Origin: Bacteroidota bacterium
GTDB lineage: Bacteria > Bacteroidota > Ignavibacteria > Kapaibacteriales > HRBIN21
Length of the DNA stretch: 57,171 nucleotides
Assembly: GCA_030550395.1 (NCBI GenBank)
Contig: JAUQPL010000013.1
Span: forward strand, 1 to 57,171
Direction of reading: 5' to 3'
Shown here piece after piece: positions 1-51,377 of the stretch. Made by a program: the position numbers and the translations under genes. The notes beneath the pieces were generated by a model. That model was given only the letters and a program-made list of their open reading frames with translations, did not search any database and was not told the DNA's origin. Position 1 is the first letter of the stretch, and every line of letters starts with the position of its first letter.

Positions 1-1
1 G

Positions 2-958: not shown

Positions 959-989
959 AGCTTACCAACGAAAGATGCCTTAGAGCAGG

Positions 990-4648: not shown

Positions 4649-5980
4649 TCATCGCCCTTTGCGTTGTAAATGTCTCCGAACTCTCGCTTGGAATTCCTCT
4701 CGGGCAACTTCCAAATCAACCATTGGTGGCGGGTAGTCAGGGGCATGGTCGTGCAATTTCGTCAGGTCAAATAACGCTTCTGTTGGGACCGAACGCAGTT
4801 CGGGTAAGAACTTGCGGATGTATTCACCTTGAGGGTCAAACTTGCGTGCTTGCAAAATCGGGTTGAAGATGCGGAAATAAGGTGCAGCATCAGCACCGCA
4901 CCCCGCAACCCATTGCCAGTTGCCTACATTTTGCGCTAAATCGGCGTCAACGAGGTTGCGGTAAAAATATCGTTCGCCCCAACGCCAGTCAATTCTCAAA
5001 TGCTTGGTCAAAAAACTGGCAACGACCATGCGCGTGCGGTTTGGGATCCATCCTTCTTGCTTTAACTGCCTCATCGCGGCGTCAATGAGTGGGAAACCCG
5101 TCTGCCCATTACACCAACGCTCAAAATCACGCTCATCCTGACGCCATTCAAACCCGCGCCATTCTGCTTTCCACTCCTGTGCCGCCGTTTCCGGGAAATG
5201 GTGCAGCAAGTGATCGTAAAAGTCGTGCCACGCTAACTCTCTCACAAATGCCTCACTCACTTTCAAAGCATCACGACATAACCGCCGCAATGAGATTAAG
5301 CCACAGCGAATGTATGGACTCATTTGCGAACTGGAGTTTTCGGTCAAAAAGTTGCGAGTGTGTTCGTAGTTGGGCAAATAGTGTTGGACATAGTGCCTCC
5401 ACCGTTGTAAAACCTCTTCCTCGCTGACGCACCATTTTTGCGCTGCTTTACTTTGAACTTTTGGCAATGCCGTTTCCTCAAAAGCAACCCGTGGCGTGTT
5501 AAACCGGTTTGGCGTTGAATAACTTGTCAAACCCTCTCGCTGCAGCGATGGCAGAAAATGACGCTTGTAAAATTGCGTGAAAGTCGCGAAAGGGGTTTCT
5601 GGCATAGGTGTCAAGGTGCTGTCCCGCAAGATTTCATAGCGAACACCTATTCGGTCAAGAAGTCGCATTAACTTTTCGTCACGCTCCCCTGAATGGGGCT
5701 CATGGTCTTCGCAAAACCGCACGACATCGGGCTTAACGGTTGCGAAAAAGGCTTCTTGCTGTTCTGTTCGGATACAGTAAAGATGCCCGCCGAGAGAAGA
5801 AATTTTCTTGCGCAATTCGTTCAAGGCGGAGAAAAACAGAGCCTTAAGATTGTCGCCGTGCTCATGTTGGTTGAACTCATCAAGCACAAAAAGCGGAACA
5901 ATTTCATGCTCACATGCTCCTTGCCAAAGTGGATTATCTTCCAACCTTAACTCCCTTCGGACGATGGCTAGGATACGCAT
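4649..5980 (-). CDS. phrB: Deoxyribodipyrimidine photolyase (class I CPD type)
   Basis: The 443-residue protein repairs UV-induced pyrimidine dimers using light and reduced FAD. The N-terminal alpha/beta domain begins RILAIVRRELRLEDNP, the photolyase antenna-domain signature. The C-terminal FAD domain carries the family's most conserved run: TGFPLIDAAMRQL, then NRTRMVVASFLTKHL, then DWRWGERYF, and NVGNWQWVAG followed by PYFRIFNP. The length is typical. Upstream is a short gap and then the insertion-sequence remnant. The composition is AT-richer than the core genes, in line with the rest of the island. A cryptochrome-like protein without repair activity cannot be excluded, but the conserved core favours CPD photolyase. 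Confidence 0.93.
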   Translation of the reverse strand: MRILAIVRRELRLEDNPLWQGACEHEIVPLFVLDEFNQHEHGDNLKALFFSALNELRKKISSLGGHLYCIRTEQQEAFFATVKPDVVRFCEDHEPHSGERDEKLMRLLDRIGVRYEILRDSTLTPMPETPFATFTQFYKRHFLPSLQREGLTSYSTPNRFNTPRVAFEETALPKVQSKAAQKWCVSEEEVLQRWRHYVQHYLPNYEHTRNFLTENSSSQMSPYIRCGLISLRRLCRDALKVSEAFVRELAWHDFYDHLLHHFPETAAQEWKAEWRGFEWRQDERDFERWCNGQTGFPLIDAAMRQLKQEGWIPNRTRMVVASFLTKHLRIDWRWGERYFYRNLVDADLAQNVGNWQWVAGCGADAAPYFRIFNPILQARKFDPQGEYIRKFLPELRSVPTEALFDLTKLHDHAPDYPPPMVDLEVAREEFQARVRRHLQRKGR

Positions 5981-6193
5981 TCGCCTTCACCCCTTTGTAG
6001 GACATCGTGCCGAGGAGCAAAATGCCCCAAACTGATAATGCTATTCCGCATTTTCCTCTCCAACCGTTTCGCTCCTGCTGCTCTAATTGCAGCAATACCT
6101 GCAAAGCCAAGTGATTTGCCCTTTAAGTGTTTCACTCTTTAGGGAAAAGTCGCTATTGTTCCTAATCCCCTTCGCTCAAAACTACGCTACACT

Positions 6194-6355
6194 GATGACA
6201 GAACTGTTCTTTCAATCTTACCGAGACGAGGAGGACCGGAGTTGGAGTCTTTTGCCGAGAAAGTTACCACTGAGTATCGCCGACACTTTGTGGGCAAAGT
6301 TGAAGTAATTCCCAAATGCGCCATCAAATCCTATGACGATTTCGCCATTTACTGA
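6194..6355 (+). pseudogene. Malic enzyme N-terminal remnant
   Basis: One frame encodes GKVEVIPKC, then AIKSYDDFAIY and stops. This matches the N-terminal signature of NAD(P)-dependent malic enzymes, where KVEV.PK is followed by DFAI.YTPGVA. The homology stops at DFAIY, a few bases before the terminal repeat of the IS5-type element, and no continuation is visible beyond the element. No convincing start codon is seen in this frame upstream, so the fragment is cut at both ends. The 5' limit given is approximate. Confidence 0.55.
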
Positions 6356-6360
6356 CCAAT

Positions 6361-7027
6361 GGAGCTTTGTTGCACAAATGGAGGTGGAGGGTGATTGGGA
6401 GAATGTAGCGACATTACTTACATGCCCCGAAAGAAGCACTCCTATCGGTATGTGGTGAAGAACTACCGTACTTACAATGAAGCCTTAGTGCAGCGAGGCT
6501 CGCCGACGATGTGGATGCCAGCAGACTGGCTATCCCGATGGGAAGCGCCACAGGAGAGAAAGCGCGGAGCACCGTTCAGATATAGTGATGCGACAATCCT
6601 GATGATACAAACGCTGTGCACGGTTTTCAGGCTGCCGTATCGGGCTACGGAAGGCTTGATGCGGTCCATTTTGGAACTGATGAGAGTTTCCCGGCGCGTG
6701 CCGGACTATACGACGCCGTGTCGGCGAGGGCGACGGCTGCGGGTAGAGATACACGACACAGCTGAGCAAGGGAGGAGAGGGAGTGGAGGTGATTTTGCAT
6801 GGAACAGGGGATCAGGGTGGATGATTCCGGAGCATGGCGGGATCGCCGCTGTTGTGGAAGGACTCGGTCGGTTGGGAGTGCAACTCCAAAGGAAGGTAGT
6901 TTTCATCAGAGAACGAAATTTCCGGTTTGTTGGATCGGTTGGTAGTGGCTCAACATCGGGTGGAAAGGATTCGCTAATCATTGAACTTTGCTTTCCAACC
7001 ATTCCAATGTTTCGCGCCACCCAATAA
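6361..7027 (+). mobile_element. IS5-family insertion-sequence remnant
   Basis: The left end contains ggagctttgttgcacaaat (6361-6379), a terminal-repeat-like sequence resembling those of IS5/IS903-group elements, about 60 bases before the transposase ATG. Only the transposase N-terminal half is recognisable. No matching right terminal repeat (atttgtgcaac type) was found before 7120, so the element is truncated and cannot move by itself. The right boundary is arbitrary. Confidence 0.65.
6422..7027 (+). pseudogene. IS5-family transposase, truncated
   Basis: The product from the ATG at 6422 starts MPRKKHSYRYVVKNYR and continues through RYSDATILMIQTL, RATEGLMRSIL and VPDYTTPCRRGRRLRV, the N-terminal DUF4372/IS5-type helical region of many IS903-like transposases. 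After about residue 110 the similarity stops. The DDE catalytic region is absent and the remaining 90 codons look like random reading of degraded DNA. It is inactive. Confidence 0.75.
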
Positions 7028-7118
7028 CACCTTGACGATCTTGTTGTATGGATTTCAGAATGATTTGCTCTATCAACCATGGGTAGCCAGGTTGAAAAAT
7101 AACAAAGCCATTAGGCAA

Positions 7119-7762
7119 CTACTGCTGGAATTTTTCTGCCAACAAGCCAAATAACCGTGCCCGCTCTCTTGTTTCGTCAGTTCGGGCTTTCATTGCTCTT
7201 CGCTGCCATTCATCATAGCGTGTGATGGTATATGGCACCTCCAAAACAAGTTGTGTTTGCACCTTACGGCGAGCAAACCGGCCACCTTCTCGGGCTTCAG
7301 TTCGGTATGTCTCCTTCTTGACCTGAAGGGCAACTTTTACATTTCTCACTGTCACTAATGCATCAATACCTTGCATGTCCAATTCCGCTGATGCTTCTAA
7401 AGGAAGAGTGCAATATGCCAACCAAGAGTAGGAAAAATGGAACTGCGTGAGCACTGAAACAAGTGTTCGGTAGATGCGGGCTTTAAAGCCCAAGTAGACG
7501 AACTCATGCGAACAGCCCCAAAAATACTTGCGAATAAAAGCATCCAATGGTTCCACCACTTGTTGAAAAACTCTTCATAGTCTGGGAACTTTGCTGTTTC
7601 AGGTAGCCAATAACTGGCATAAATTGACGGCAGAGGATTTAAGTCCTTTGGTAAATCTTGTTCTACTGTTTTGATTGGCACTAATTCTTCACGGTAACGC
7701 TCCAGCGGTATGGAGCTCAGAAACGCTTCAAACCGTTCCAACCACTCCTTCATCGCGCTCAC
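7119..7762 (-). pseudogene. TaqI-like restriction endonuclease (TCGA), frameshifted
   Basis: Two overlapping minus-strand frames give one homologue of R.TaqI. The first half carries VPIKTVEQDLPKDLNPLP and WLPETAKFPDYEEFFNKWW. The second carries KYFWGCSHEFV, RTLVSVLTQFHF and the catalytic-type region DMQGIDALVTVRNVKVALQV. The frames join at 7553-7554. One extra C on the plus strand (G in the gene) would give KWWEPLDAFIRKYFWG and restore a 214-codon gene, so a 1-nt deletion or a sequencing error is present. The start is GTG at 7762 overlapping the methyltransferase stop (GTGA), or ATG at 7753. R.TaqI cuts T^CGA. The specificity here is inferred from similarity recalled from memory. Confidence 0.8.
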
Positions 7763-9033
7763 TCCTCAAACGGAAGTTTTAACACTTCATCATCGGGGGC
7801 AAAATCTATCGGTAGTGGGATTTGCTTGAGCATGGTCTTCGTAAGGTGTGGCACGAAGTCACGGTAGAGGGTATGGACATAGCTCTGCACGGGTTCGCTA
7901 TTAAGATAGCGAACGATGGCATGCAGGTCAAGCCTGCTAACTTTCGGGACAAGGTGAAATTCCTCCCGCCATGGGTAGCATCGTTCATCCAATGCGGCCA
8001 CAACTCGGGTGCCTTTTGTGTGACCGACGACGATATGGTGGAAGCCGTAGAAGGGCCGCAAAGTGGGTGCCGCTTCCCTTGGCATCCAAAATCCAGAATA
8101 GCAATGGTCATAGTCAATCCAACCCGGTTTCAAATTCCTCCCCGTCAGAACAGGGACGAAGCTTTCCTTAGGTTTGGTAGTTACTTGCGGATGGGAGCGA
8201 ATCTCGGGGCTACGAGCAGCGAAGTGGATATCAAATAATCGTTCAAGAGCAATTCCACTTCGCTCAAACGCCAATGTTTCAGGCGTTTCAAAGCGAATAA
8301 CCTCACCCCTCCATCCCGGCTTATTGACAACGAGCATTTTGCCATCGTAAAGGCTCAAACCTTTACCACCTTTTTCCAAAACCATTACAACACAAGAGAT
8401 ATTACGACGCGGAAACACTTTGCCCAAATAGTAAATCGACAAGCGACCGGTATTTGCTAAGAAAAGTCGTAACTTGACGAAGTCATCTAAAACCAACCAA
8501 CTAGCCGGCACTACGAAAACCAACTTACCATTCGGTTTAAGCAAGTTCACTGCGTGTTCGATGAACGCTCCGTAAATGTTAAACTTGCCGCGCCAAGTTC
8601 GGAATCGGCGTTTATAGAGGATTTTGCGTTCCTTGAGCGTGTGGATGGGGTAATGAGATTCATCTCCGATAATGCCGTAGGGTGGATTGCCAATGATGAT
8701 ATCAAAGCGTTCATTCGGGTGCCACAAAAGAAAGTCGTCCTCAATGACGGTTGCAAAGGGCACCCGGGCTAAAGCCCGGCGGACGGCTTCGGTGTCAATG
8801 TCTATGCCGACGAATTCGTGGTGGGAACCATAGCGTTCGGCAAAAGCTTCCAGAAATGGGCAATCTCCGCATGCGGGCTCCAAAACTCGGCAAACTCCCT
8901 TTGCCGGCGCTGCTAAAGCTACCATGGAGTTCACTAGTGCCTGTGGCGTCGGCACGGCACCCAAAGCTCTGTCTCCATTTCTGTTTGCTCCCACGCAAGA
9001 GACTCCGTCTCTTCCCATTACAGCTGGAACCAT
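7759..9033 (-). CDS. TaqI-like N6-adenine DNA methyltransferase
   Basis: The 424-residue protein follows M.TaqI closely: the SAM site VLEPACGDCPFLEAF, the catalytic motif NPPYG at about residue 115, then ESHYPIH, GKFNIYGAF and VVPASWLVL. The C-terminal target-recognition domain includes PVLTGRNLKPGW and HTKGTRVVAA. M.TaqI methylates adenine in TCGA, which protects DNA from its partner nuclease. The start ATG at 9033 touches the mlaE stop (TAGATG), and an ATG at 9018 is equally plausible. With the nuclease gene frameshifted downstream, it would act as a solitary methyltransferase. It lies in the same direction as mlaE and may share its transcript. Confidence 0.92.
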   Translation of the reverse strand: MVPAVMGRDGVSCVGANRNGDRALGAVPTPQALVNSMVALAAPAKGVCRVLEPACGDCPFLEAFAERYGSHHEFVGIDIDTEAVRRALARVPFATVIEDDFLLWHPNERFDIIIGNPPYGIIGDESHYPIHTLKERKILYKRRFRTWRGKFNIYGAFIEHAVNLLKPNGKLVFVVPASWLVLDDFVKLRLFLANTGRLSIYYLGKVFPRRNISCVVMVLEKGGKGLSLYDGKMLVVNKPGWRGEVIRFETPETLAFERSGIALERLFDIHFAARSPEIRSHPQVTTKPKESFVPVLTGRNLKPGWIDYDHCYSGFWMPREAAPTLRPFYGFHHIVVGHTKGTRVVAALDERCYPWREEFHLVPKVSRLDLHAIVRYLNSEPVQSYVHTLYRDFVPHLTKTMLKQIPLPIDFAPDDEVLKLPFEE

Positions 9034-19816: not shown

Positions 19817-22030
19817 ATGAAGCCAAATCAATTGCTGCAGCTATTCAGCCTCGTGCTAGCAGCTGCCACTTTCCTCTCGCTCCCAGTATATGCGCAGCAG
19901 CAGGAATGTCTAACGTTTGACAACGCAGGAATCAACTACTGTGCCCAGTGGGAGACTAATGTAGCCTCTTGCCAGTGGGTTCAAAATCCACCGAACCACC
20001 CCTCGTCAGCAATGCTGTTTAGAGACGAATCTGGAGGCCCTTCACTGGCATGGAGTAGGCCGGACCTCCTGCCATTTTTTAGAGGAAACTAGCTGCAGAA
20101 AGCCCAGGTAGGATGCCTCTGCTTTGACTGGATGATTGATCTCCAGTGGCCAGGCAATCCCCCTCCAACCTTTAAGGCCCCCAAAATCGGAATTTGGAAA
20201 GGAGGGTCAACTCCACTGCAGGCCACGATCAGAGCAGAGCTTATAGCATTACCAAACGCACCGAATATGCAAGAGGACGTATGGTACCGCATCTGCCTCC
20301 CCGTTGATCCCTGCCGTAATGGGAAGCTTCCAAGCGATGGACGTTTCACATGGCGAATAGTAGCTTTACCACCGACCATGGACACTTGTACCGCATGGAA
20401 TACACTGATCACGGCGGTGGACGGTATTTATCTCGTAACAGACTACCACAGCTCCCCGAGTGAGCTAGTATACTTCGACAACTTCTGCTTCCGATGCGAT
20501 CTCTCTTATCCTGACATATGCCGCCGTGTGTTTAGTGCAGAACGATATCTTGACTCTAGTTGCTGTACATTCGGATGGTACTTCCAGCCGAATAGCGAGT
20601 TGCCTTTACAGGAGCTGACTTACTTTATCGACGGCGGACAGGTTGACACCCTGTATGCAATTGGCGGCTGTGCATACACCACAACACCTTCGAATGTACA
20701 CGGCAGCATCAGCGGGAAGTTCATCTTTAATCCGCCGTGCACACAGCCTTTCCAACTGCAGGGGGAGATAAATCCAACAACAGCGAGCGGAAAGGTAAAG
20801 GTAATTATTTGTGCCCGTATACTGCTGCCCTCCGGGGGTAACGAAGCTTCGACGTGCTGCGACACCTTTGAGCTCAAATGCCCGCGTGCACCCATTACCA
20901 AGTGTGACTCCCTCCACGTGGCGCCCTTCATCTGGTCAGGACTCAACCTCTCGGGGCGGACGTTTACGATATTCAATCAAAAGCAGCCATCCTCGCCCAT
21001 TAAAGGAGTGTTCATCCAGCTTGTGCCGGATCCGTTCCCGAACGATCCAAACTCCAAATGGAATGGTGGTGGCTTACAGGTCGACGGTGGTTCTCGCTCG
21101 TGGGGTGTGGCAAACAGCGGCACCCCGTACTATAGCCGGATTGCTATGCACTGCCCCGGGGAGACGTCGGCTCCACAAGGTCCAGCCGCGAATACGACGG
21201 TAAAGTTCAACCTGGGTGTGGACTACACCCTCAACTGGAAGGGGACAGTGCTCCTGACCGTCGTCCACTGCGATGGGGATACCTGCCGCCTCTCCTACGA
21301 ATGGTGCGCACTGACGAACTGGAGGCTGTGCGGGCGCCGTTTTCCTTGGCTTCCTGTTATCTCCCCTGTTGCAATACGCGAGCGTCTCGTTGGTGGGCGT
21401 GTAGGAGTTCAGGACAGTTCCGGCGTAATTGGGTCTATCGCCGTACGGTTGGATTCGGCAATGCTGCGGCGAGTTAGACTTGTCAGTTGCGGAGCCAGCG
21501 GAGTCAGGGACGGGGACGTCGTTGCCGGGGAGGTTCGCCAACTTCACGATGCGGCTGCACTGATTCTGCTGCCCGACTTACCCGAACCTGAAGAACGGGC
21601 TCCTATAAGCTACACTCTGACCCCCATCTTTGAGTGCGAGCGCTGCGATGCAGTGGACTATCACATTGAGCTCTACGACCGCGAGGGGAACCCGATTGAA
21701 ACTAGCCGTCAACGGGCAAGCACGCAGGTGACCAGCGTGGAGAGCCAAGGCACTGAAGGCAGCAGAAGTCAGGGTGAGCTCCTAATCGTGCCGAATCCAT
21801 CAGAGGAGACCGCAACGCTGCGCTTTGCTACATCGCTACCGGGGCCCGTCGCGCTGGAAGTTGTAGATGCGCTCGGGAAGGTAGTCCTCCAGTGGAGCGA
21901 CTACCTAGAGACGGCCGGGATGCAATCGATTGGGATGAGCACCCGCCAGCTGCCCAGCGGATACTATCACCTTCGGCTCCGTCTGCCTGATCAGAGGGTT
22001 CTGACAGCTGCACTAACTGTGGTGCGGTAA
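19817..22030 (+). pseudogene. Secreted T9SS-sorted protein interrupted by one amber codon
   Basis: From ATG 19817 a signal peptide (LLQLFSLVLAAATFLSLP to AYAQ-like site VYAQQ) leads into cysteine-bearing sequence beginning CLTFDNAGINYC. The frame is stopped by TAG at 20090-20092 and then continues open in the same frame to 22030, about 738 codons in all. Conserved-looking sequence lies on both sides (FFRGN before, QVGCLCFDWMIDL after). The middle is rich in Cys and Trp with no recognised domain. The last roughly 80 residues (LLIVPNPSEETATLRF to GYYHLRL) form a T9SS type A sorting domain, so the intact protein would be exported to the cell surface. A terminator follows. Either it is a fresh pseudogene or the TAG is a sequencing error or is suppressed. 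Confidence 0.75.
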
Positions 22031-28400: not shown

Positions 28401-30767
28401 ATGTGGCTCCTTGCTTTCTTTGGGTGCATAATTTCGGTATGGGCACAGTCTGGACTCGTCTACCAAGGGCAGACCTACGTTTATGCCCGCATCGCCGGAG
28501 ACTCCCGTCCACTTCTGCCTTCCCTCTGGGACGCCGGCGCTGACGACCACGCGCTCCGGCGAACTCCCTACGGCGTGGAGACAATTCTGCCTCGCTGGGG
28601 GGTAGACTCCCTCCAATCCTGGGGCTTTACCGTCGAGGTCCTCATCCCGGATATGGAACTTTTCTATGCAGAACGTCTCCGTCTGAGTTCTGAGCCACCC
28701 CGGATGCCCAGCGATCCTCGGAATTTCCGCTACGGAAGCATGAACGGCTTTTACCGGCTGGAGGAAATTTTCCGAGAATTTGCTCGCATGCAAGAATTTT
28801 TCCCCCAAGCTGTTGCCGGTCCTGATACATTGGGCTTCTCTGTTGAAGGGCGCCCCATCCTTGGATATCGCTTCTCCCTGACACATCGCCCTGATGCTGC
28901 TCCAGCGGTGCTGTATACAGCGTTGCACCATGCGCGCGAGCCCGGCAGTGTGACGGTATTAGTATACTTCCTCTGGTGGCTCCTCGAACGGGCAGCTGCC
29001 GGCGATCCTGAAGCTCTCTTCCTGCTGCAGAATCGGCTCCTCTATGTTGTCCCTGTACTCAACCCTGATGGTTACACCTTCAACGAAGAACAGCGTCCAA
29101 ACGGTGGGGGAATGTGGCGTAAAAATCGCCGTCCCAACCCTGACGGGAGCTTCGGCGTGGATCTCAACCGCAACTACGGCCCGCTTTCCTTCTGGGACGC
29201 CCCAAACGCAGGCTCCTCACAAAACCCCCGATCCGAGGTATATCGGGGACCAGCGCCTTTCTCTGAGCCAGAACTCCAAGCCATCCGGACACTCCTGCAG
29301 CGCTATCCCTTCCGGATTGCCCTCAACTACCATACGTACAGCAACCTGCTCATCTACCCTTTCGCCGCACTGGAGAGGGAATCCCCCGACTCTCTCCTCT
29401 ACCGTCTCTTCGCCGCAGAAGCAACCCGATGGAACCTGTACTCCACCGGCCGTGACATCCAGACTGTGGGTTACTCGGCGCGGGGAGTCTCCGATGATTG
29501 GATGTACGACACCAGCGACGGTGGGAAACCGAAGGTGCTGGCAATGACCCCCGAGGTCGGCACAATCCTGGATGGCTTCTGGCCCCCGATGGAGCGTCTC
29601 CTGGCGCAAGCACGGGAAACTCTCTGGTTAAATCTCCAAGCCGCTTGGAGCGCCGGAGCAAATGTCCGCCCTCTCTTCTTCACCGCTTCCTGGCACCCAA
29701 CTCCCCTACTCTGGCTCCAATGTTGCAATATTGGAACAGCCCCCTCTGAATCCACGACACTCTCCCTTCGCCTGCTCCGCCCGGGACTCCAACCAGCATC
29801 AGACTCCACTATTGCTCTCCCTCCACTTCTGCCCGCAGAGTGCCGACGATTGTCGTGGGAATATGCTCCCCTCCCTACGTGGGTCAATGGGGATAGCCTC
29901 ATCGTGGAAATCCTTGCTGTGCAGGATGGCGTCCCACGACGCGATACCATTGCTCTCCCGTGGGGACAGCCGACAGTGCTTCCTCTGTTCACCTCTGCCG
30001 AAATGGCTCATCTGTGGGAACTCAACGGTTGGGCATCCGCATACGACTCCACCCTCATGACGTGGACACTGAAAAGCCCACTTGCGGAAACCTACCCAGA
30101 CTCAGCTTCCCTCTATGCAACGCTTCGCACCCCTATCTCCATTCCCTCTAACAGCCGAGCCTTGCTGGAACTTTGGGCACGCTGGAGCATAGAAGCCAAC
30201 TATGATGTTGCCACTGTGGAAATCTCCACCGACGGGGGTACATCGTGGCAATGGCTTAAATCGGAACGAATGAAACGAGGGCTTGGTCTGAGGGGAAGTC
30301 GCCAAGAAGAAAATTCGTGGGGCTGGGATGGGCACTTCCCCTTATGGTTCCCCCAGCGGTTTGACCTGACTCCCTTCGCTGGACGGAAGGTGCTGCTCCG
30401 TTTTGGGCTGCTCAGCGACCCCGCCATCGGCTTCCACGGGGTTTCCGTCGCACAGGTGCGACTCCTCATCTTTGAAAGGGCTGCCTCCAGTGTCTCTGAA
30501 AAGCTCCCTGACACCTCACCGCGCCTCTTCCCACAACCTGCCCGACGGGGGAATGCCCTCTATGTCCAGCTGCCGGAGTCCGTAGATGGTTCTATCGCGG
30601 CATCCTTGTTCTCCTCCGTGGGAAGTCAAATCACAACGTGCACCCTTCCAGTAGCCGGGGGTATGGGAACTCTATTACTGCCAGCTCAACTCAGCCCTGG
30701 TCTATACTTCCTCCACTTCCAGTGGGGAGCTCAGAGATACTGCCTTCCTTGTCCTGTGCTTCCATAG
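28401..30767 (+). CDS. Secreted M14 zinc carboxypeptidase with T9SS tail
   Basis: The 788-residue protein has a signal peptide (residues 1-15, cleavage after VWAQ). The M14 domain is at about 105-415, with zinc ligands in HHARE (H177, E180) and H311 in ALNYHTYSN, substrate residues in DLNRNYG and the catalytic glutamate in TPEVG (about E385). Residues 420-690 hold beta-rich domains, one of them jelly-roll or MAM-like with TSWQWLKSERM. The C-terminal roughly 80 residues (LFPQPARRGNALYVQL to GLYFLHFQW) are a T9SS sorting domain. It removes C-terminal residues from extracellular peptides. It starts three bases after rsmG, an odd partner, so co-transcription may be incidental. Confidence 0.9.
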   Translation: MWLLAFFGCIISVWAQSGLVYQGQTYVYARIAGDSRPLLPSLWDAGADDHALRRTPYGVETILPRWGVDSLQSWGFTVEVLIPDMELFYAERLRLSSEPPRMPSDPRNFRYGSMNGFYRLEEIFREFARMQEFFPQAVAGPDTLGFSVEGRPILGYRFSLTHRPDAAPAVLYTALHHAREPGSVTVLVYFLWWLLERAAAGDPEALFLLQNRLLYVVPVLNPDGYTFNEEQRPNGGGMWRKNRRPNPDGSFGVDLNRNYGPLSFWDAPNAGSSQNPRSEVYRGPAPFSEPELQAIRTLLQRYPFRIALNYHTYSNLLIYPFAALERESPDSLLYRLFAAEATRWNLYSTGRDIQTVGYSARGVSDDWMYDTSDGGKPKVLAMTPEVGTILDGFWPPMERLLAQARETLWLNLQAAWSAGANVRPLFFTASWHPTPLLWLQCCNIGTAPSESTTLSLRLLRPGLQPASDSTIALPPLLPAECRRLSWEYAPLPTWVNGDSLIVEILAVQDGVPRRDTIALPWGQPTVLPLFTSAEMAHLWELNGWASAYDSTLMTWTLKSPLAETYPDSASLYATLRTPISIPSNSRALLELWARWSIEANYDVATVEISTDGGTSWQWLKSERMKRGLGLRGSRQEENSWGWDGHFPLWFPQRFDLTPFAGRKVLLRFGLLSDPAIGFHGVSVAQVRLLIFERAASSVSEKLPDTSPRLFPQPARRGNALYVQLPESVDGSIAASLFSSVGSQITTCTLPVAGGMGTLLLPAQLSPGLYFLHFQWGAQRYCLPCPVLP

Positions 30768-37440: not shown

Positions 37441-39129
37441 ATGGAGCTCCCCGTGTTGTACAACCTGCTTTTCCTCCTAGGATTAGCGTTCGTGCTGACG
37501 GCTCTTTCCGATCAACTCGGTATACCCCACACTCTCACCCTTGCTGTCGGTGGATTAATCGTTGGACCAGCAGGGATAGGGCTTGTATCCTCTTCCGACA
37601 GTGTAAAACTACTGGCAGACATCGGTCTTATCCTCTTGTTGTTTACCGTTGGCTTAGAATTCTCTTTCCGCCGTCTTTTTTATCTCCGCTGGATCGCTCT
37701 CTGGGGCGGTTCCCTCCAGATGGGACTTTCAACACTGATAGGTTGTGCCATATGGTTTCTGTGGAAGCAAAGCTCATTTATTGAGGCTCTCGCTATAGGA
37801 CTCCTATGCTCTATGAGCAGCACTGCTATAGGACTTGGTCTTCTGGTCAAAGGGGGTGAAATAGAAGCTCCCCACGGACGGCTTGCCTTTAGCATTCTGC
37901 TGGCACAGGATATAGCTCTTCCCCTGGTTTTAGTTCTCATCCGTCTTCTTGGTTTTCTCAGCAGCCAAAAGTCTCCTTCGGTATCATCCCTGCTATTTGA
38001 AGTAGCTCTCATCATCGGCGCGGGGGTTTTACTCTTTCTCTTGCTGCGCCTCCTTATCCACACCCTTGTTCGGCTTCTTCGATTAACAACTTCTCGTGAG
38101 GCGTTTGTTCTCCTAGGGCTGACGGTGGGTATTGGTGCTGCTCTGCTAAGTGACTCCTGGAATCTTTCCCCGGCCTTAGGAGCCTTCCTGGCAGGGATTC
38201 TCTTCTCCGACTTTCAGGAACGATACCGCCTTGCCAGCGTGGTAGAGCCCTTTCGGGATGCCTTCGGAAGTGTATTTTTTTTCTCCGTCGGACTTCTCAT
38301 AGGAACCCTGCCGCCTCTGGGCTGGCTTATCGCTCTTTCGATGGTGCTGTTTGGCGCAAAGCTTATCGCCACCATGCTTCCAGCCCGCCTTCTTGGATAT
38401 GCCCTGCGTCCGGCATTGCTTAGTGCAATCCTCCTTGCTTCCTTAGGGGAATTCACGCTGGTAGGCCTCCATGTTGGGTCAGAACTAGAGCTTTTTAGTT
38501 CAGAAACTCAGGAGCTTCTCCGCGGAGCTTTCATTGGAAGTGTTCTCCTGACAGGATTGCTCTACCAAGGATTCCGGCGGAGGATTCCTCAGAGACCCCC
38601 TTCGGATTCCCCCCTATCAGAAGTCCCCACCGAGCATGTCCTCATTATTGGCTATGGCGTAACCGGTGCCACCGTGCACGCTGTCATAAAGGATGCCTCT
38701 TTTCCCTACGCCATCTTGGAGCTGAATCCCTTCACCGTTACTAGACTCCAGGCTGCTGGCGAACCTGCTTTCCTAGGGGACTGCACGGATGAGAAAAGTC
38801 TCCGCCGCGCCGGCGCCGACCGTGCTCGAGCAATTGTGGTAGCAATCTCCGATACACTCCTGCTCCTCCAAGCCGTAGGACTCCTCCGGAGCTTGAATCC
38901 TACGGCCTTTATCGCTGTCCGAACCCGATACGTTGCCCATGTGGAGCCTCTTTACACCGCCGGTGCTTCTCTTGTCGTTGCGGAAGAGTTGGAGGCATCG
39001 CTGTACCTTCTGAAATCTTTGCTCCGTCATTTAGACATACCCGTGCAAAACATCACCGCCCTCAGCGAACGCTTCCGCGCTCAGCACTACGCTCTCTTCC
39101 GACAGCAACTGGATAAGCTGGAGACATGA
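37441..39129 (+). CDS. CPA2-type monovalent cation:proton antiporter with TrkA-N domain
   Basis: The roughly 562-residue protein has 12 or so membrane helices, including VGGLIVGPAGIGL, LLLFTVGLEFSFRRL, SSTAIGLGLL, DSWNLSPALGAFLAGILFSD and FFFSVGLLIG, the KefB/CPA2 pattern. From about residue 395 a cytoplasmic Rossmann TrkA-N domain follows (HVLIIGYGVTGATV, LGDCTDEKSLRRAGADRARAIVV). It exports K+ or Na+ in exchange for protons and is gated by nucleotide binding. A GTG at 37426, right after the transketolase stop, is an alternative start. It overlaps the CCA-adding enzyme by 4 bases (ATGA). Confidence 0.88.
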   Translation: MELPVLYNLLFLLGLAFVLTALSDQLGIPHTLTLAVGGLIVGPAGIGLVSSSDSVKLLADIGLILLLFTVGLEFSFRRLFYLRWIALWGGSLQMGLSTLIGCAIWFLWKQSSFIEALAIGLLCSMSSTAIGLGLLVKGGEIEAPHGRLAFSILLAQDIALPLVLVLIRLLGFLSSQKSPSVSSLLFEVALIIGAGVLLFLLLRLLIHTLVRLLRLTTSREAFVLLGLTVGIGAALLSDSWNLSPALGAFLAGILFSDFQERYRLASVVEPFRDAFGSVFFFSVGLLIGTLPPLGWLIALSMVLFGAKLIATMLPARLLGYALRPALLSAILLASLGEFTLVGLHVGSELELFSSETQELLRGAFIGSVLLTGLLYQGFRRRIPQRPPSDSPLSEVPTEHVLIIGYGVTGATVHAVIKDASFPYAILELNPFTVTRLQAAGEPAFLGDCTDEKSLRRAGADRARAIVVAISDTLLLLQAVGLLRSLNPTAFIAVRTRYVAHVEPLYTAGASLVVAEELEASLYLLKSLLRHLDIPVQNITALSERFRAQHYALFRQQLDKLET

Positions 39130-43935: not shown

Positions 43936-44238
43936 CAGAACATGCCGCTTTCAACACCCCACACTACCACAGGTGGAATACCCTACGGCCTGACCTCCAC
44001 CTCTAGACTGCATATCGCCGTAAACCCTCATCGAAACCTCACCCTTCGGCGGCTACCCACTACCTTTTCTCCGTCCCCCATGGGCACTGCCCTCTCAACG
44101 GAGGAGCTCCACTGAAGAACCCTGCAAGCAATGGCAAAAATACGGACTTCCGCCACAGGCACCCGGAAGGGCGCCTTTGTAAACTTTGAGCACTTTTCGG
44201 TATTTTTGAGCCTTCATTGCACAGGCTTCTCCCTCCCC
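43936..44238. promoter_or_regulatory. Divergent promoters for pyk and serS
   Basis: Rightward: TTTG (44176-44179), 21 bases, then TATTTTTG (44201-44208), 30 bases before the serS ATG. Leftward: TATTTTTG on the minus strand at 44142-44135. Both -7 boxes match TAnnTTTG fully. Nothing else is recognisable in the roughly 300 bases, and the serS frame is open upstream of 44239 only by chance. Confidence 0.55.
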
Positions 44239-45504
44239 ATGCTCGACCTTCGGTACATCCGTGAGAATCCTGCCGTTGTAGAGGAACAGTTACGCCGTCG
44301 CGGGAACCATACCTCTCTTGACGAGATCCTGCGCTTAGACGCGCAGCGCCGTCAACTCATCCGCTCTATTGACGCCATCCAACACGAGCGGAAGGCCATC
44401 CAAGCAGAAGTTGCTTCGGCAAAGGAGCGTGGAGATGTCCCGGAGAAAGCTCTCAGCTACCTCCGGACGCTTGCTGACCGACTTCGCTCCCTGGAGGATG
44501 AACTCCGGGAGGTAGAAACTCGGCTACGCCTCCAGCTGCTTTCCCTCCCGAACCTTCCCCATCCTACGGTTCCTGATGGCACTACCGCCGACGAAAACCG
44601 TGAAGTCCGCCGATGGGGAGAGCCTCAGCAAAAGGAGTTTCGCAAAGATCACTTGGAAATTGCAAGGGAGCTACATCTTCTCGACTTCCAGCGGGCAGCG
44701 AAGGTAAGCGGAAGCGGATTTGTCTTCTACACCGGTAAGGGTGCCCAGCTTGAGCGCGCTCTTATCAACTTCATGTTGGACTTCCACGTCCGCCATCACG
44801 GCTATCGCGAGCTCTTCCCTCCCTTCCTCGTGCTCCCATCGGCAATGGAGGGAACTGGACAGCTACCGAAGCTGCGGGATGACATGTACTACGTGGAGCG
44901 TGATGAGCTTTTTCTCATCCCGACGGCCGAAGTCCCGCTGACGAACTACTTTGCAGACGAGATCCTTCCTGCGGAGAGCCTCCCTATAAAGCTCTGTGGG
45001 TACTCTGCCTGCTTCCGCCGGGAAGCCGGCAGTTACGGACGGGAAACACGCGGGCTGGTACGTCTCCATCAGTTCAACAAGGTGGAACTGGTTAAGTTCT
45101 GCCGTCCCGAGGATTCGTACGAAGAGCTGGAAGCGCTCGTTGCAGAAGTTGAAGCAGTGCTCCAGGCCCTGGGAGTCGTCTACCGTGTTGTCCTGCTGTG
45201 CGCTGGCGACATGGGATTTGCCAGTGCAAAAACGTATGACTTGGAAGTCTGGTCGCCCTGCCAGCAGCGGTGGTTGGAAGTCTCCAGTTGCTCTAACTTC
45301 GAGGCGTTCCAAGCTCGGCGGGCTAACATCCGCTATCGTCCTAAGGCTGGAGCAAAACCAGAGTTCATCCATACGCTTAACGGGAGCGGTTTAGCCACCC
45401 CACGGTTGATGGTTGCCCTGCTGGAGCAGTTTCAGACACCGGAGGGAACTGTCGTTGTTCCAGAGGCACTGCGCCCTTACTGTGGCTTTGATATCATTGC
45501 ATGA
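44239..45504 (+). CDS. serS: Seryl-tRNA synthetase
   Basis: The 421-residue class II synthetase starts LDLRYIRENPAVVEEQLRRR. The N-terminal tRNA-binding coiled coil (residues 25-105) follows, then motif 2 (CFRREAGSYGRETRGLVRLH), EVSSCSNFEAFQARR and motif 3 (HTLNGSGLATPRLMVALLE). It charges tRNA-Ser. ATG 44239 was chosen because it starts the family sequence and lies just behind a TTTG/TATTTTTG promoter. It is the last gene before the putative replication origin. Confidence 0.97.
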   Translation: MLDLRYIRENPAVVEEQLRRRGNHTSLDEILRLDAQRRQLIRSIDAIQHERKAIQAEVASAKERGDVPEKALSYLRTLADRLRSLEDELREVETRLRLQLLSLPNLPHPTVPDGTTADENREVRRWGEPQQKEFRKDHLEIARELHLLDFQRAAKVSGSGFVFYTGKGAQLERALINFMLDFHVRHHGYRELFPPFLVLPSAMEGTGQLPKLRDDMYYVERDELFLIPTAEVPLTNYFADEILPAESLPIKLCGYSACFRREAGSYGRETRGLVRLHQFNKVELVKFCRPEDSYEELEALVAEVEAVLQALGVVYRVVLLCAGDMGFASAKTYDLEVWSPCQQRWLEVSSCSNFEAFQARRANIRYRPKAGAKPEFIHTLNGSGLATPRLMVALLEQFQTPEGTVVVPEALRPYCGFDIIA

Positions 45505-45515
45505 AGGCAAAACCC

Positions 45516-45760
45516 TGTGGAAAGCTCTGGGTGGAGATAGTGAGGGGTGTGGAAATGTGGAAAGACCAGTTGCTGCTGGCGCTGTTTTCCTACGGCCATA
45601 CGGTGCTGTGGTGCTGTGGATAACTGGGTGCGGGCTGTGGAAGGCGTGTGGAAAGTTTTCCAAAAGGAGGAGTGCAAGGGGGGGGTGTGTGGAAACCGTG
45701 GGAGATTATCCACAAACGTGTGGAAAAGTGCTGTGCACAGTGTGGAAGTCTGTGGGGATA
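45516..45760. other. oriC: Candidate chromosomal replication origin (DnaA-box cluster)
   Basis: The gene-free gap has two perfect DnaA boxes, TGTGGATAA (45615-45623) and TTATCCACA (45706-45714), in opposite orientation. Near-matches TGTGGAAAx lie at 45516, 45548, 45556, 45647, 45688 and 45719, TGTGGAAGx at 45636 and 45741, TGTGGGGAT at 45751, and the palindrome CTGTGCACAG at 45731-45740. The plus strand changes from C-rich on the left to G-rich on the right of this gap whichever strand is coding, as expected at an origin. No dnaA gene is in the window, and a strongly AT-rich unwinding element is not obvious. Short open frames across the region are not genes. Confidence 0.78.
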
Positions 45761-45810
45761 CCAGCTTGGAACTGGGGGCTGTGCTTCTCCGGGAGTGGTG
45801 GTGCGGTGAG

Positions 45811-46419
45811 ATGATATCTGTCCTTGGGTGCTGGGCGGTGGGGATAGCGTGGGCTGTGATAGTTGTGGGGTGTAGTATCTGGCGTATGCCGGAGTTCAAA
45901 GAACTCACCAAGCAGGGAGGTTCTCCGGTTCCAGAGCTTCAGCTTTCGGTGGAGCCTGTACGTTCGGCTCTGGGAGATGTATTGCTTTTCGTTCCCAAAG
46001 GGTGGTTCTTGCCAGACTTAGGGGATCGGATGCCGGCTGGGATGGTTGCCGTGGCAGTCAATCCGGACTACACCCTTGCTCTGACGCTTACCCTCCTTCG
46101 GAGAGCTTCGCGCGACAGTGCGGGGCGGTACGACCTTTTGGAAGTAACCCGGCAAAGCTTCGAGCGGCATCAGGCTCGCACGGCGGGAGCAGTTCGCTTG
46201 GCGAGCGACTTCACGCTTATGCAGCTGGGAATGAAGACGTTCGGTGTCTACCGATTCGTTCGGGAGCAGCGTCATGTCTGGGTGGCAGTTTTTGTCTCCT
46301 CCATAGGCACGGTATATGAGGTGGCGGTGGTTCCTCTCTCGGTGCGTCCTATTGACCCGCCGCCGGAGGATGAGTGCGAGCGCATATTCAAAGGAGTCCT
46401 TCGGGCAATACAGTTTTGA
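45811..46419 (+). CDS. Putative lipoprotein next to the origin
   Basis: From ATG 45811 the 202-residue product has a hydrophobic signal ending VIVVGCS, a plausible lipobox, then a domain of alternating strands (VLLFVPKGWFLPDLGDRM, VAVAVNPDYTLALTLTLL, FTLMQLGMKTFGVYRFV, VWVAVFVSSIGTVYEVAVVP). I do not recognise the family. The longer frame from 45547 runs through the DnaA-box region and is rejected. It lies six bases ahead of the next gene, which suggests an operon leading into the flagellar genes. Confidence 0.65.
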   Translation: MISVLGCWAVGIAWAVIVVGCSIWRMPEFKELTKQGGSPVPELQLSVEPVRSALGDVLLFVPKGWFLPDLGDRMPAGMVAVAVNPDYTLALTLTLLRRASRDSAGRYDLLEVTRQSFERHQARTAGAVRLASDFTLMQLGMKTFGVYRFVREQRHVWVAVFVSSIGTVYEVAVVPLSVRPIDPPPEDECERIFKGVLRAIQF

Positions 46420-46897: not shown

Positions 46898-48010
46898 GTG
46901 CCGATATACCTGTCTGCCAGGACGCAAGCTGTGTGTAGGATGCACATTGGCTCAGAAATCCCGGAGGTGGAAGGCGGGAAGGGCTGGAAGGGGTTCCCTG
47001 GTTCAGAGAGACGGGGACGCTCACTGTCAGTAGGAGCAAGTGATCCCTTCGCTCAAGCCTTAGCATACTGCCTGTCCTGTGGTTTTTCACCGCATGTTCA
47101 GCTCTTGGAGAATACCGGTGAAGGTACCCCGGGAGGGGATCAAGGGTCCTTAGGAGAAGTGGAATCTAGGACCGAACGAGTCCGATGGAGGCTTCCTTCG
47201 CCTCCTCTGGTCCTAGGAGGGACGATGGGGAAGGAGGATACCTGCGGACAGGAGACGGCCTTCGGCGTGCTGTTGATTCCTGTTGCGGATGGGCAGCGGA
47301 TAGGACAGAACCTGCCTGCTGGGATATCCGTGGCTAAGGGGAAATCGTTCGGAGAGACGGGATCCAGCGATACAGGATGGCCTTCCCTGTTGCCGGTGTC
47401 CCTATGGGAAGGGCACCAAGGTGAGAAGCCGCAAGGGGGGACTTCCCCTGCTGCCATTTTGGGGAAAGAGATGGCGGTAGAGGTCCCAGATCCTACAGCC
47501 CGGGAAAGCTCCCTGGGAGTGACGGATAACCAATTCTCCATAGGGCCTGGGACATTGACTGGATGGCATCCCGAGGGATTGAGGTCCACCCAGCGGGTGC
47601 AGGAAGGGGTAGAGGTGCAGCAACTTCGGATACTGTTCGTGCAAGCAATGGAACAGGCTCTCCGAGCGCGTGGAGAACTGCCGACGGTGGCTTATGCGCG
47701 GGTAGAAGTCCCAGCGTGGGGATGGATCGGGCTAACCATTGCTATCAACGGCGGGCAGGTGTCCATCCGAGTGGAGAGCCAATCTTCCGAGGTCGGGCAC
47801 CAATTAGTGGCGGCGGCTGAAGAACTGCAGCGGATGTTGAGTGAGCGGCATCTTCGGCTCACCGAGTTTTCTGTTCGGACATCGGAGGCGATGACCTCTG
47901 GCGGCTCTTGGCAAATGTGGCGGCAAGCCGATAGAAGAGCTTACCGTGAGCGGAAGTGCTTCGTCAGCTCCTTCCGTTGGTATCGGACGCATCCATTGGC
48001 GGTGGTGTAA
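46898..48010 (+). CDS. FliK-like flagellar hook-length control protein
   Basis: The roughly 370-residue product has a long low-complexity, Gly/Pro/Glu-rich N-terminal two thirds. The compact C-terminal domain (about residues 265-335: ARVEVPAWGWIGLTIAI, GGQVSIRVESQS, then LQRMLSERHLRLTEFSV) has the strand-helix pattern of the FliK/Flg_hook C-terminal domain, which switches export from hook to filament. The position directly before flgD and flgE supports this. The start is GTG 46898 or ATG 46940. Assignment rests on domain pattern plus context. Confidence 0.6.
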   Translation: MPIYLSARTQAVCRMHIGSEIPEVEGGKGWKGFPGSERRGRSLSVGASDPFAQALAYCLSCGFSPHVQLLENTGEGTPGGDQGSLGEVESRTERVRWRLPSPPLVLGGTMGKEDTCGQETAFGVLLIPVADGQRIGQNLPAGISVAKGKSFGETGSSDTGWPSLLPVSLWEGHQGEKPQGGTSPAAILGKEMAVEVPDPTARESSLGVTDNQFSIGPGTLTGWHPEGLRSTQRVQEGVEVQQLRILFVQAMEQALRARGELPTVAYARVEVPAWGWIGLTIAINGGQVSIRVESQSSEVGHQLVAAAEELQRMLSERHLRLTEFSVRTSEAMTSGGSWQMWRQADRRAYRERKCFVSSFRWYRTHPLAVV

Positions 48011-48028
48011 GTATCCATCGGGGATGCA

Positions 48029-48721
48029 ATGTCAGGGACAGTTGGAGCGCTCTCGGCATTGACAGCCCACGCTTTGGGGTATCAGCCCGGTGCAAAGGGG
48101 AGCGCCTCCGCGCCGGAGCGAGAGTATTTCCTGCGGCTCCTCGTTGCTCAGTTGCGAACTCAGAATCCTCTCCGCCCATATGAGGGGCAGGAATTTGCCG
48201 TGCAGTTGGCCATCTTCTCCCAAGTGGAACAGCTTGTAGCCATGCGGCAGTTGCTGGAGGTACAGCTTGGTCAGTTCTCAGGGCTCATGGAGACCATGGG
48301 AAATGCCTCTGCTCCCGCCTTGGTCGGGACGTTTGCCCGGGCGGAGAGCTCTATGGTATGGCTTCCCGCAGACGGAGGTGTACAGTTCGGCTATGAGCTC
48401 CCGGAGGCAGCGGAGGAGGTGCGGGTTGAGATCCTTACACCGGCGGGCGAGACCGTCCGTGTGTTAGAGTTCCACCAAGTGCGAGCAGGGGTCCACACTG
48501 TAGAGTGGGACGGGCGGACGGCATCCGGTGAGCGATTGCCAGCAGGGCGATACGCTGTGCGGATTATCGCTAAGGATGGGGCGCAGCAGAGTAGAGAGGT
48601 CATCCCCTTTGTTGAGGGAATCGTTGAAGCTGTGCGCTTTACGGAAGGCGGAGCCTTTGTAATTATCAACGGAGTTGAGGTTCCGCTGGTTGCTGTTCGG
48701 GAAATACGCAAGCGTCCGTAA
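48029..48721 (+). CDS. flgD: Flagellar hook-capping protein FlgD
   Basis: The 230-residue protein has the FlgD N-terminal signature FLRLLVAQLRTQNPLRP, followed by EFAVQLAIFSQVEQL. The C-terminal half (YELPEAAEEVRVEILTPAGE, GVHTVEWDGRTASGERLPAG) is the FlgD Ig-like/FLG-D domain. It caps the growing hook and guides FlgE subunits. The fliK-like gene precedes it and flgE follows after 24 bases. Confidence 0.92.
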   Translation: MSGTVGALSALTAHALGYQPGAKGSASAPEREYFLRLLVAQLRTQNPLRPYEGQEFAVQLAIFSQVEQLVAMRQLLEVQLGQFSGLMETMGNASAPALVGTFARAESSMVWLPADGGVQFGYELPEAAEEVRVEILTPAGETVRVLEFHQVRAGVHTVEWDGRTASGERLPAGRYAVRIIAKDGAQQSREVIPFVEGIVEAVRFTEGGAFVIINGVEVPLVAVREIRKRP

Positions 48722-48745
48722 GTCTCAGTAGTCGGAGGGAAAGTT

Positions 48746-50062
48746 ATGGCGTTGGCACGGTCTCTGAGCACAGCGCAGAGCTCTCTTCGGGCACATCAGC
48801 AGAGGCTTGATCTGATTGCTGCCAATGTAGCCAACGTTAACACTATCGGTTACAAGGCAAGCCGGGCGCGCTTTGCTGAATACTTCGCTCAACGTCTCGG
48901 TCTTGGAACAATGCCGCTTGGAGTCAGCGGAGGAATGGACCCGCTCCAGGTTGGCTTGGGAGTGCGTTTGGCGGCGGTGGTGACGGATATGTCCCAGGGG
49001 GCGTTAACAGTGACGGAGAGACCCTTGGATGTAGCTCTCCGGGGAGAGGGATTTTTCGTATTACAGCTCAATGGGCAGCAGCGTTATACCCGTGCGGGCT
49101 CCTTCACCGTAGACGCTCAAGGGAGGATAGTGGATACGGCAACGGGGGCACTCGTGCAGGGATACAACCTCCTCTTGGATCCGAGTGGACGTCCGATTCG
49201 GGATAGCTCCGGAAACTTCTTACTTTCCCGTCGCATAGAAGCGCTTCGTATCCCACCGGAATTGCGCTCGCCAGCGCACCAAACAGAGCGCGTACGGTTA
49301 GCGGGAAACTTAAGCGCGGAAATGGGTGATGGCGAAAGCATCGCCACGAGTATCCTAGTCTACGATGCGCGCGGCGCTACCCATGTATTGCGGCTAGAAT
49401 TTCGGAAGACAAGCACGCCGAATGAGTATGAGCTCAGTATGACCATTGATGGGCAGACCGTTGCCCTGCCAGCGGGCACTTCTACCGTGCAGTTCGGCAG
49501 TGATGGGGTCCTGGAATCTCCGCTCTCGCTCACGATTCCTGCTTCGGAACTTAATACGGCTCTGGGGGGGAGCTCACCGGTGTTTGACCCCTCCAAGTCG
49601 CTCACAATTGAGTTGGCACCCTCGGACAACCGATTAGCAGGAATTACCCACATGGCCGGACAGAGTGCGGTGACCGCTGTGGAACAGGATGGATATGGAG
49701 CCGGGGAGCTTGTTGGACTTCGCGTGGATGCAACGGGGAAGCTGGTCGGCATCTTCAGCAACGGGCGGACGGAAGTAGTAGCACAGCTGGTGATCGCGAA
49801 GTTCCCCAACCCCGGTGGGCTCTTACGAGAAGGGGATTCTCTCTTTGCCACTTCGCCTAACAGCGGCGCTCCAATCCTGGGAACAGCCGGTGAGATATTC
49901 CCCAGTACGCAGATTATCGCGGGAGCCCTGGAGGAAGCGAACGTAGACTTAAGCACAGAGTTTACAGAGCTTATCACAACGCAGCGCGGGTTTGAGGCTG
50001 CCGCGCGTATCGTGTCGGTGAGCGACCAGATATTAGCGGAGCTAACGGCGCTGAAGCGCTAA
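48746..50062 (+). CDS. flgE: Flagellar hook protein FlgE
   Basis: The 438-residue protein starts ALARSLSTAQSSLRAHQQRL and has the rod/hook motif IAANVANVNTIGYKASRARF, then the flagellar domain (LDVALRGEGFFVLQ, YTRAGSFTVDAQGRIVD, QGYNLLLDPSGRP). The C-terminal helix VDLSTEFTELITTQRGFEAA resembles FlgE/FlgG ends. The length and the large middle domain favour FlgE over FlgG. A GGAGGG ribosome site is seven bases before ATG 48746. It ends two bases from the convergent T9SS gene. Confidence 0.93.
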   Translation: MALARSLSTAQSSLRAHQQRLDLIAANVANVNTIGYKASRARFAEYFAQRLGLGTMPLGVSGGMDPLQVGLGVRLAAVVTDMSQGALTVTERPLDVALRGEGFFVLQLNGQQRYTRAGSFTVDAQGRIVDTATGALVQGYNLLLDPSGRPIRDSSGNFLLSRRIEALRIPPELRSPAHQTERVRLAGNLSAEMGDGESIATSILVYDARGATHVLRLEFRKTSTPNEYELSMTIDGQTVALPAGTSTVQFGSDGVLESPLSLTIPASELNTALGGSSPVFDPSKSLTIELAPSDNRLAGITHMAGQSAVTAVEQDGYGAGELVGLRVDATGKLVGIFSNGRTEVVAQLVIAKFPNPGGLLREGDSLFATSPNSGAPILGTAGEIFPSTQIIAGALEEANVDLSTEFTELITTQRGFEAAARIVSVSDQILAELTALKR

Positions 50063-50063
50063 G

Positions 50064-51377
50064 TTATGGCTGAAGGGGACCCTGCAGGGTAGCGGCTCCG
50101 ACGGTAATGAGGGCATCGTAGCCTCCTTGGTCGGGGAAGCGGTAGTATACGAATGCCCAGAAGGAAATACGGCTCCCGGTGGTATTGCCTTCCCATTCCT
50201 CAAAGGAGAGCGACTCCATGGTGCCGGTGTCTGCGTTGAGGTGCCCGGTGGCGTACAGGTAATTATGGCGCCCACGGCGCACGAGCTGCCGTAGGCGGTA
50301 GAGACGTTCCTCTGGATCATAGGTCAGGCGCCACTCTGGCGAGGCTTTCCAATTGTTGAAGGAGCCGACAGCGAAGACATCCTCCGCAAGCGGAGGTGCT
50401 CCTTCAGGGTCCAGAATGAATTCGACAGGGACGTAGTCTTGGAGGTACGGAGGGAGGAAAGCTGTTCGAGCGGCGCCATCATCGGCCCATTCAGAAAAGC
50501 TCCCGTTGCGTCGCAGGTCTGCCAGTGGGAAGCGGATAGGCGAGGGGGCATTCGGGGGAAAAAGCGCGGGATTGCTGAGATCGAGTACACGGTATTCGTT
50601 CTGTGCTGGAAGTCGCTCGGCTCGGAAGATTTTTATCCCCGGAAGCATGCCGGAGATGCTCTTCCCATACGGTTGCCGGTAAAGGCGCTCTGCTGCAACC
50701 CCTAAGGAAGGCTCGTGGGAGACGATATAGGGCTCAAACCAACGGTGATTGCGGTAGAACACCACCGTCTGAACCCGCTCATCGATGGCAAGAGTAGGAG
50801 GGAGCTGTACCCATGCTTCCACCGTTACAGCGGCGGGGCTTATACCAGGCTTAGAGGCGTAAAGGTCGCTGTAGACCACGACGCGACAGCTTCCTTCAGG
50901 GCGTACGGCGAAAAACCGTGCTTCTGCCAGGAGATGTTCCGGGTTGGCAAGCTCATACAACTGTAGCTTCCAGTTGCCGGCATAAGCGATGGTAACCTGG
51001 GGATTAGGAATCCGCAGTCGCCCTCGGTAGGTGTAGTAGCGGGAATTGACGGTTGCTGGCTCCCAGGAGAACAGCGTTGTTCGGGTTAATCCGACAGTGA
51101 GGAACACATTGTGGCTCTCGCTCCAATCGGGGCGGCAATGAATAAAGCGGGCTTCCAGAGCAGGGGGAACAGAGGCGTCGACTTCTACCTCTAACGTCAC
51201 AAATGGATAGCCGAGCACAGGGACAGGGGTGACCGCTTCCGGGTTGAGGAGGAGGATAGGAGGGGCGGTCTCATCTTCAGCACCGTAGAGCCGGATGTTC
51301 CGGATGAACCACGGACGTTGCTCTGCCACAGCGGTAATGCAACACCATAAGAGAAGTGCGGCGACATACGGATTCAT
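50064..51377 (-). CDS. Type IX secretion system plug-like protein (DUF5103)
   Basis: The 437-residue protein has a signal peptide and the DUF5103 layout: an N-terminal beta domain (IRNIRLYGAEDETAPPILLL, RFIHCRPDWSESHNVFL, YTYRGRLRIPNPQVTIAYAG) and the C-terminal block HNYLYATGHLNADTGT, FEEWEGNTTGS and FVYYRFPDQGGYDALI. This family includes the Plug protein that closes the SprA translocon of the T9SS. It agrees with the T9SS-sorted proteins in this window. It is last in a leftward three-gene unit and overlaps the barrel gene by 4 bases. Confidence 0.75.
   Translation of the reverse strand: MNPYVAALLLWCCITAVAEQRPWFIRNIRLYGAEDETAPPILLLNPEAVTPVPVLGYPFVTLEVEVDASVPPALEARFIHCRPDWSESHNVFLTVGLTRTTLFSWEPATVNSRYYTYRGRLRIPNPQVTIAYAGNWKLQLYELANPEHLLAEARFFAVRPEGSCRVVVYSDLYASKPGISPAAVTVEAWVQLPPTLAIDERVQTVVFYRNHRWFEPYIVSHEPSLGVAAERLYRQPYGKSISGMLPGIKIFRAERLPAQNEYRVLDLSNPALFPPNAPSPIRFPLADLRRNGSFSEWADDGAARTAFLPPYLQDYVPVEFILDPEGAPPLAEDVFAVGSFNNWKASPEWRLTYDPEERLYRLRQLVRRGRHNYLYATGHLNADTGTMESLSFEEWEGNTTGSRISFWAFVYYRFPDQGGYDALITVGAATLQGPLQP

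Follow-up and report, generated by a model that had tools for sequence, protein, structure and literature searches.

A predicted chromosomal replication origin between serS and the flagellar hook genes of a Kapabacteria-related genome

The window analyzed in this study is an entire contig (C12, 57,171 bases) of a draft genome of 1.94 Mb that is assembled in 15 contigs and is 99.3% complete. Five genomes of the same genus (G001–G005) were used for comparison, and the families referred to below are labeled f1–f10. In the window, the seryl-tRNA synthetase gene serS, whose closest named relatives include Candidatus Kapaibacterium (56–60% identity), is followed by a gap that contains approximately 125 G, 47 C, 65 A and 70 T, and then by a short gene and three flagellar genes. 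The features of the locus are as follows; offsets are counted from the first base of the tandem pair.

44131–45504, plus strand: serS, seryl-tRNA synthetase (PF00587 and PF02403)
45470–45547, no strand: putative unwinding region, comprising the 3’-end of serS and the spacer that precedes the tandem pair (no more than 0.57 AT in any 30 bp; position matches the DnaA-trio stretch of f2)
45505–45810, no strand: predicted oriC, the non-coding gap from serS to the next gene (unique box cluster, skew sign change, box positions kept in five congeners)
45516–45523, plus strand: near-box TGTGGAAA upstream of the tandem pair (comparable site in G001 only)
45548–45563, plus strand: left module, overlapping tandem DnaA-box pair TGTGGAAATGTGGAAA with an 8-bp period (in 5/5 congeners)
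45615–45623, minus strand: perfect DnaA box TTATCCACA, offset +67 (66 in G003 and G005)
45636–45643, plus strand: near-box TGTGGAAG, offset +88
45647–45654, plus strand: near-box TGTGGAAA, offset +99 (not conserved)
45688–45695, plus strand: near-box TGTGGAAA, offset +140 (138–140 in 4/5 congeners)
45706–45714, plus strand: perfect inverted DnaA box TTATCCACA, offset +158 (155–158 in all six genomes)
45719–45726, plus strand: near-box TGTGGAAA, offset +171 (168–171 in 4/5 congeners)
45741–45748, plus strand: near-box TGTGGAAG, offset +193 (190–192 in G003, G001 and G005)
45811–46419, plus strand: next gene, short protein with a signal-like N-terminus (no Pfam match; conserved in 5/5 congeners)
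46898–50062, plus strand: flagellar hook genes fliK, flgD and flgE (order kept across the genus)

A mechanically called open reading frame at 45547–46419 (GTG start) was considered as the N-terminus of the next protein and rejected, since every frame contains stops in all five congeners; the gene likely starts at the ATG at 45811. An earlier note, made from the sequence of this window, described the downstream genes as a lipoprotein/flagellar operon. The flagellar part of this description agrees with the presence of fliK, flgD and flgE, and the term “lipoprotein” goes no further than the signal-like N-terminus of the short protein.

The same note reported two perfect DnaA boxes in opposite orientation and a cluster of near-boxes within 245 non-coding bases (45516–45760). 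Both were found again. Exact copies of TGTGGAAA start at 45516, 45548, 45556, 45647, 45688 and 45719, and those of TGTGGAAG at 45636 and 45741; the stops in the congener frames agree with the non-coding status of the stretch, and TGTGG occurs in it 11 times. The degenerate motif TGTGGAWA has eight sites in this single 245-base stretch of the gap. Neither 60 simulated versions of the whole window (order-2 Markov) nor 20,000 shuffled versions of the gap ever had more than two. Genome-wide there are eight copies of TTATCCACA and 94 of TGTGGAAA, and counting both over the 1.94 Mb revealed no second box cluster. A second copy of the tandem-pair motif, on contig C11, is without neighboring boxes. 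The third TTATCCACA of the window (38054–38062) lies inside a sodium/hydrogen exchanger gene and is likewise isolated.

The box cluster is present after serS in 5/5 congeners, that is, in all other genomes of the genus that were compared, so that the loss of the boxes in close relatives, named in the earlier note as an argument against an origin, is not observed. When the gaps are aligned, the sequence between the boxes has diverged and the boxes keep their positions within 1–4 bp. Offsets 0 and 8 occur in all genomes, and 66–67, 87–88, 138–140 and 168–171 are recurrent. The inverted box has one mismatch in some genomes, and the last box of the right array lies at offset 190–193 or 202–203 across the genus. 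A near-box at +87 or +88 is found in 4/5 congeners, and several other families have one at +86 to +88. The tandem pair of the congeners is located 29–43 nt past the serS stop, its version in G005 being TGTGGAAATGTGGAGA. Spacing that is held while the remaining sequence drifts points to a protein assembly that reads the spacing, and the nearly constant separation of the tandem pair and the inverted box suggests that the two modules touch each other. The gene order pyk–serS–gap–fliK–flgD–flgE is common to the congeners (the G005 contig begins inside serS); in G001, G002 and G004 the next shared gene is about 0.5 kb further from the boxes.

Across the gap, GC skew in 2-kb windows passes from about −0.11 to about +0.17. 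Third-position skew at 8.5–45.5 kb is −0.192 in plus-strand genes and −0.232 in minus-strand genes, and at 45.8–57.2 kb it is +0.205 and +0.217, respectively. Since the sign changes in the same way in both gene orientations, gene direction is not the cause of the change, as had been proposed from base counts of individual 60-base lines; these counts were correct except for the number of G in 28801–28860, which is 15 rather than 14. The cumulative minimum within the contig had been expected at about 45.6 kb and was found at 44,840. This is inside serS, 0.7–0.9 kb to the left of the boxes, and we count the displacement against the origin reading.

Because the assembly is in 15 pieces, congeners with long contigs were used as a wider test of skew. 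Three of the five were sampled in stretches on contigs of 215–590 kb, and all three change sign at the locus. In G004 (590 kb) the values are −0.03/−0.08 on the left and +0.04/+0.11 on the right, with every right-hand sample positive; in G002 (301 kb) they pass from −0.03/−0.08 to +0.06/+0.12 about the serS gap; G001 (215 kb) shows the same change at the serS gap, the last sample excepted.

These data bear on the possibility that the boxes serve serS or the flagellar genes as a regulatory or termination element and that the skew change is a local accident, e.g. an inversion boundary. Some of the repeats are indeed G-rich and direct, and the adjoining operon is conserved. However, a local accident does not fit the change of third-position skew in both gene orientations, nor its recurrence in all tested large congener contigs over at least 100 kb, and a role in the regulation of the adjoining genes does not fit the occurrence of the same box layout beside unrelated genes in other families (see below). 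We regard this explanation as extremely improbable.

The genome encodes DnaA: dnaA was found on contig C5 (20161–21534; TIGR00362, 486.7 bits) and dnaN on contig C3. Neither gene is on contig C12, in line with the earlier observation that they do not adjoin the gap, and dnaA is apart from dnaN in 9/9 genomes tested. The gap could also be the origin of a secondary replicon or plasmid, given that the window is a separate 57-kb contig of a draft assembly. However, the contig carries core genes (serS, pyruvate kinase, NAD-dependent DNA ligase and flagellar genes), and in the congeners the locus sits on contigs of up to 590 kb, in three of them together with dnaN. The chance of a secondary replicon is therefore negligible in our estimate.

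The tandem pair also occurs outside the genus. In f6 (G010) it is located 58 nt after serS, has the sequence TGTGGATATGTGGATAA and is accompanied by five further boxes on both strands. In f2, four genomes have two abutting boxes, or a degenerate form of such a pair, after serS, and the fifth (G015) has a single TGTGGATA and a degenerate second box. Skew is weak in f2 and f6, and at the f2 loci no sign change in the expected direction was seen at serS, which we also count against the origin reading. The motif TGTGGAWATGTGGAWA was found in 29 of 123 genomes, and the reversed pattern in one among the matches listed. In many of these places a gene on the same strand ends 15–100 bp before the pair, and the approximately 170–370 bp after the pair contain no same-strand gene and often have more boxes, commonly at +86 to +88.

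The gene beside the pair differs: it is RmlD-like in f4, alaS in f3 and thiamine pyrophosphokinase in two genera of f9 (one member of each was identified by Pfam, the others by resemblance). The distance from the pair (in G008, from the single box) to the local skew minimum is at most 0.6 kb in three f4 genomes, 1.7 kb in four f9 genomes and 2.8 kb in three f3 genomes; for G061 and G109 it is 2–7 kb. For G008, a complete f4 genome without an exact pair, skew sampling indicated a minimum somewhere in the 110–220 kb interval. The gene found next after the pair in sister genomes was located afterwards at 126.7 kb, TGTGGAAAAGTGGAAAA was found at 126,310, and the local skew minimum is at 126,165, so that the placement of this putative origin site, predicted from the comparison, was confirmed at the sequence level. 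A box pair at 387.9 kb of the same genome was rejected as the origin since it is away from the skew minimum, and the site at 126.3 kb was favored.

Clusters of TTATCCACA were considered as origins in three further genomes: no skew sign change was seen at those of G015 (2319 kb) and G029 (contig C8), and skew gave no clear answer for those of G010 (contigs C1 and C5). Not every one of the 29 genomes carries the TGTGGAWATGTGGAWA motif at an origin. In G041 (f2) there are 17 copies of TGTGGAAATGTGGAAA in one genome (contigs C17–C86, locus L205). The one copy that was examined lies within TGTGAGAATGTGGAAATGTGGAAATGTGAGAA, where other boxes are few, so it may be a dispersed repeat rather than an origin.

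An AT-rich DNA unwinding element is common at oriC, although it is not obligatory as a visible feature. By composition, AT content in the gap stays at or below 60% in every 30-bp stretch. The definition of the basal unwinding system (BUS) asks for three or more NAN triplets, on the correct strand, no further than 16 bp from a DnaA box (PMC8287927); the strand and direction of the DnaA-trio were taken from PMC8235120. With spacers of 2–6 tried, the longest trio run 5’ of the tandem pair in the genome under study is 1, which is the chance level, and as far as tested this genome does not match the BUS sequence definition. The lack of an AT-rich stretch and of a trio above chance are both counted against the origin reading.

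Within the genus the longest run equals 3 in G003 and in G005, and the genus-wide trio sum is above that of shuffles (p = 0.011). In f2, runs of 6, 7 and 11 central-A triplets are found immediately 5’ of the pair in three genomes. These loci (L128, L136 and L137 in G029, G034 and G006, respectively) lie 100–210 nt past the serS stop and have an abutting or near-abutting pair; they are predicted to be origins with weak local skew. In a BUS, a co-oriented tandem pair adjoins the unwinding site; the pair itself is present and conserved in the genus. Since no AT-rich stretch is found here and the trio is at the chance level, the adjoining unwinding site was placed, provisionally, 5’ of the pair by analogy with the relatives.

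The locus resembles the BUS-type oriC of Bacillus subtilis (PMC6669920, PMC8287927) in that its tandem DnaA boxes point the same way, the spacer is short and G-rich, and further boxes lie about 70–200 bp away at near-fixed spacing; the long trio runs of the f2 relatives are also in the expected place and direction. Unlike in B. subtilis, the boxes of the serS gap overlap with an 8-bp period instead of being separated, the trios are barely recognizable in this genome, and dnaA and dnaN do not adjoin. In oriC2 of Helicobacter pylori (PMC8235120) there is similarly a box pair, a GC-rich spacer and a trio beyond the spacer, with the strand and direction seen in the f2 relatives, whereas the H. pylori oriC is split around dnaA and its box consensus differs. 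Synechococcus lividus PCC 6715 (DoriC 10.0, PMC6323995) has a cluster of TTTTCCACA-type boxes far from dnaA and dnaN, but it is a cyanobacterium and its oriC location is unrelated.

Dense, mostly co-oriented near-boxes without a clear AT-rich unwinding element could also make up a DnaA-titration or DnaA-regulating site (datA- or DARS-like) near the origin instead of the origin itself. However, the gap coincides with the skew minimum in the genus, as does the tandem-pair module in other families. Moreover, it is the sole box cluster in the genome, so that the true origin would need to be box-free. We consider such a site very unlikely.

Overall, 45505–45810 is predicted, with a probability of about 0.95, to be the chromosomal oriC of this Kapabacteria-related genome, as the earlier note had suggested. 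Core features of an oriC are found together here: an intergenic DnaA-box cluster, a skew minimum (local in the window, over 215–590 kb in congeners), an encoded DnaA and conservation in 5/5 congeners. The reading is based on the uniqueness of the cluster, the strand-independent skew change, the conserved geometry and the recurrence of the module at skew minima of relatives.

The following steps of initiation are proposed. DnaA would bind the left module (45548–45563) and the right array (+67 to +193) around the inverted box at 45706. Because the distance between the two modules hardly varies, looping would probably bring them together into one nucleoprotein complex; helically phased looping has been described in the B. 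subtilis oriC (PMC6669920) and is presumed here. DnaA filaments would grow from the pair along the strand on its 5’ side, and the duplex would open at the 3’-end of serS. Helicase loading would take place at this opening, from which two forks would move apart, and this may account for the skew change.

The element belongs to a known kind, to which its location after serS and its overlapping pair add new details. Unusual besides are the lack of an obvious AT-rich or DnaA-trio element here and the difference of gene neighbors between families. We lean slightly towards an origin cassette shared across the taxonomic order, about 250 bp long and arranged as gene 3’-end, trio or G-rich spacer, overlapping tandem DnaA boxes, and boxes at approximately +87 and beyond. 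It would keep its internal geometry and change its neighbors by family (serS, RmlD-like, alaS, thiamine pyrophosphokinase), usually lying just 3’ of a same-strand gene, and the recognizable AT-rich or trio element would have been lost in this GC-rich genus. The changing neighbors of an otherwise constant cassette are the most interesting extension. A comparison of the families may show how an origin keeps its internal geometry in different surroundings.

In a literature search confined to open-licence papers, no published origin in Kapabacteria was found. The locus provides a well-supported candidate origin for a lineage whose oriC is separate from dnaA and dnaN, themselves separate from each other, so that gene-context methods would miss it. 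The motif TGTGGAWATGTGGAWA may serve as a simple search motif for origins across the order and help to orient draft genomes. The locus also raises the question of whether a visible AT-rich element is required for the opening of an origin by DnaA.

Two other parts of the window are of separate interest. At 1–8500 GC content is lower (about 0.47–0.54 vs 0.57 elsewhere) and there is no clear skew; the segment encodes a KAP NTPase, a ResIII helicase-like protein, a DNA photolyase and an Eco57I/TaqI-type methylase, and looks like an acquired or defence-related one. Next to the flagellar hook genes, 50064–51377 encodes a T9SS plug-like protein, and at 20132–22030 there is a C-terminal sorting-domain match slightly below the Pfam cut-off, which together point to type 9 secretion and flagella in one genome.
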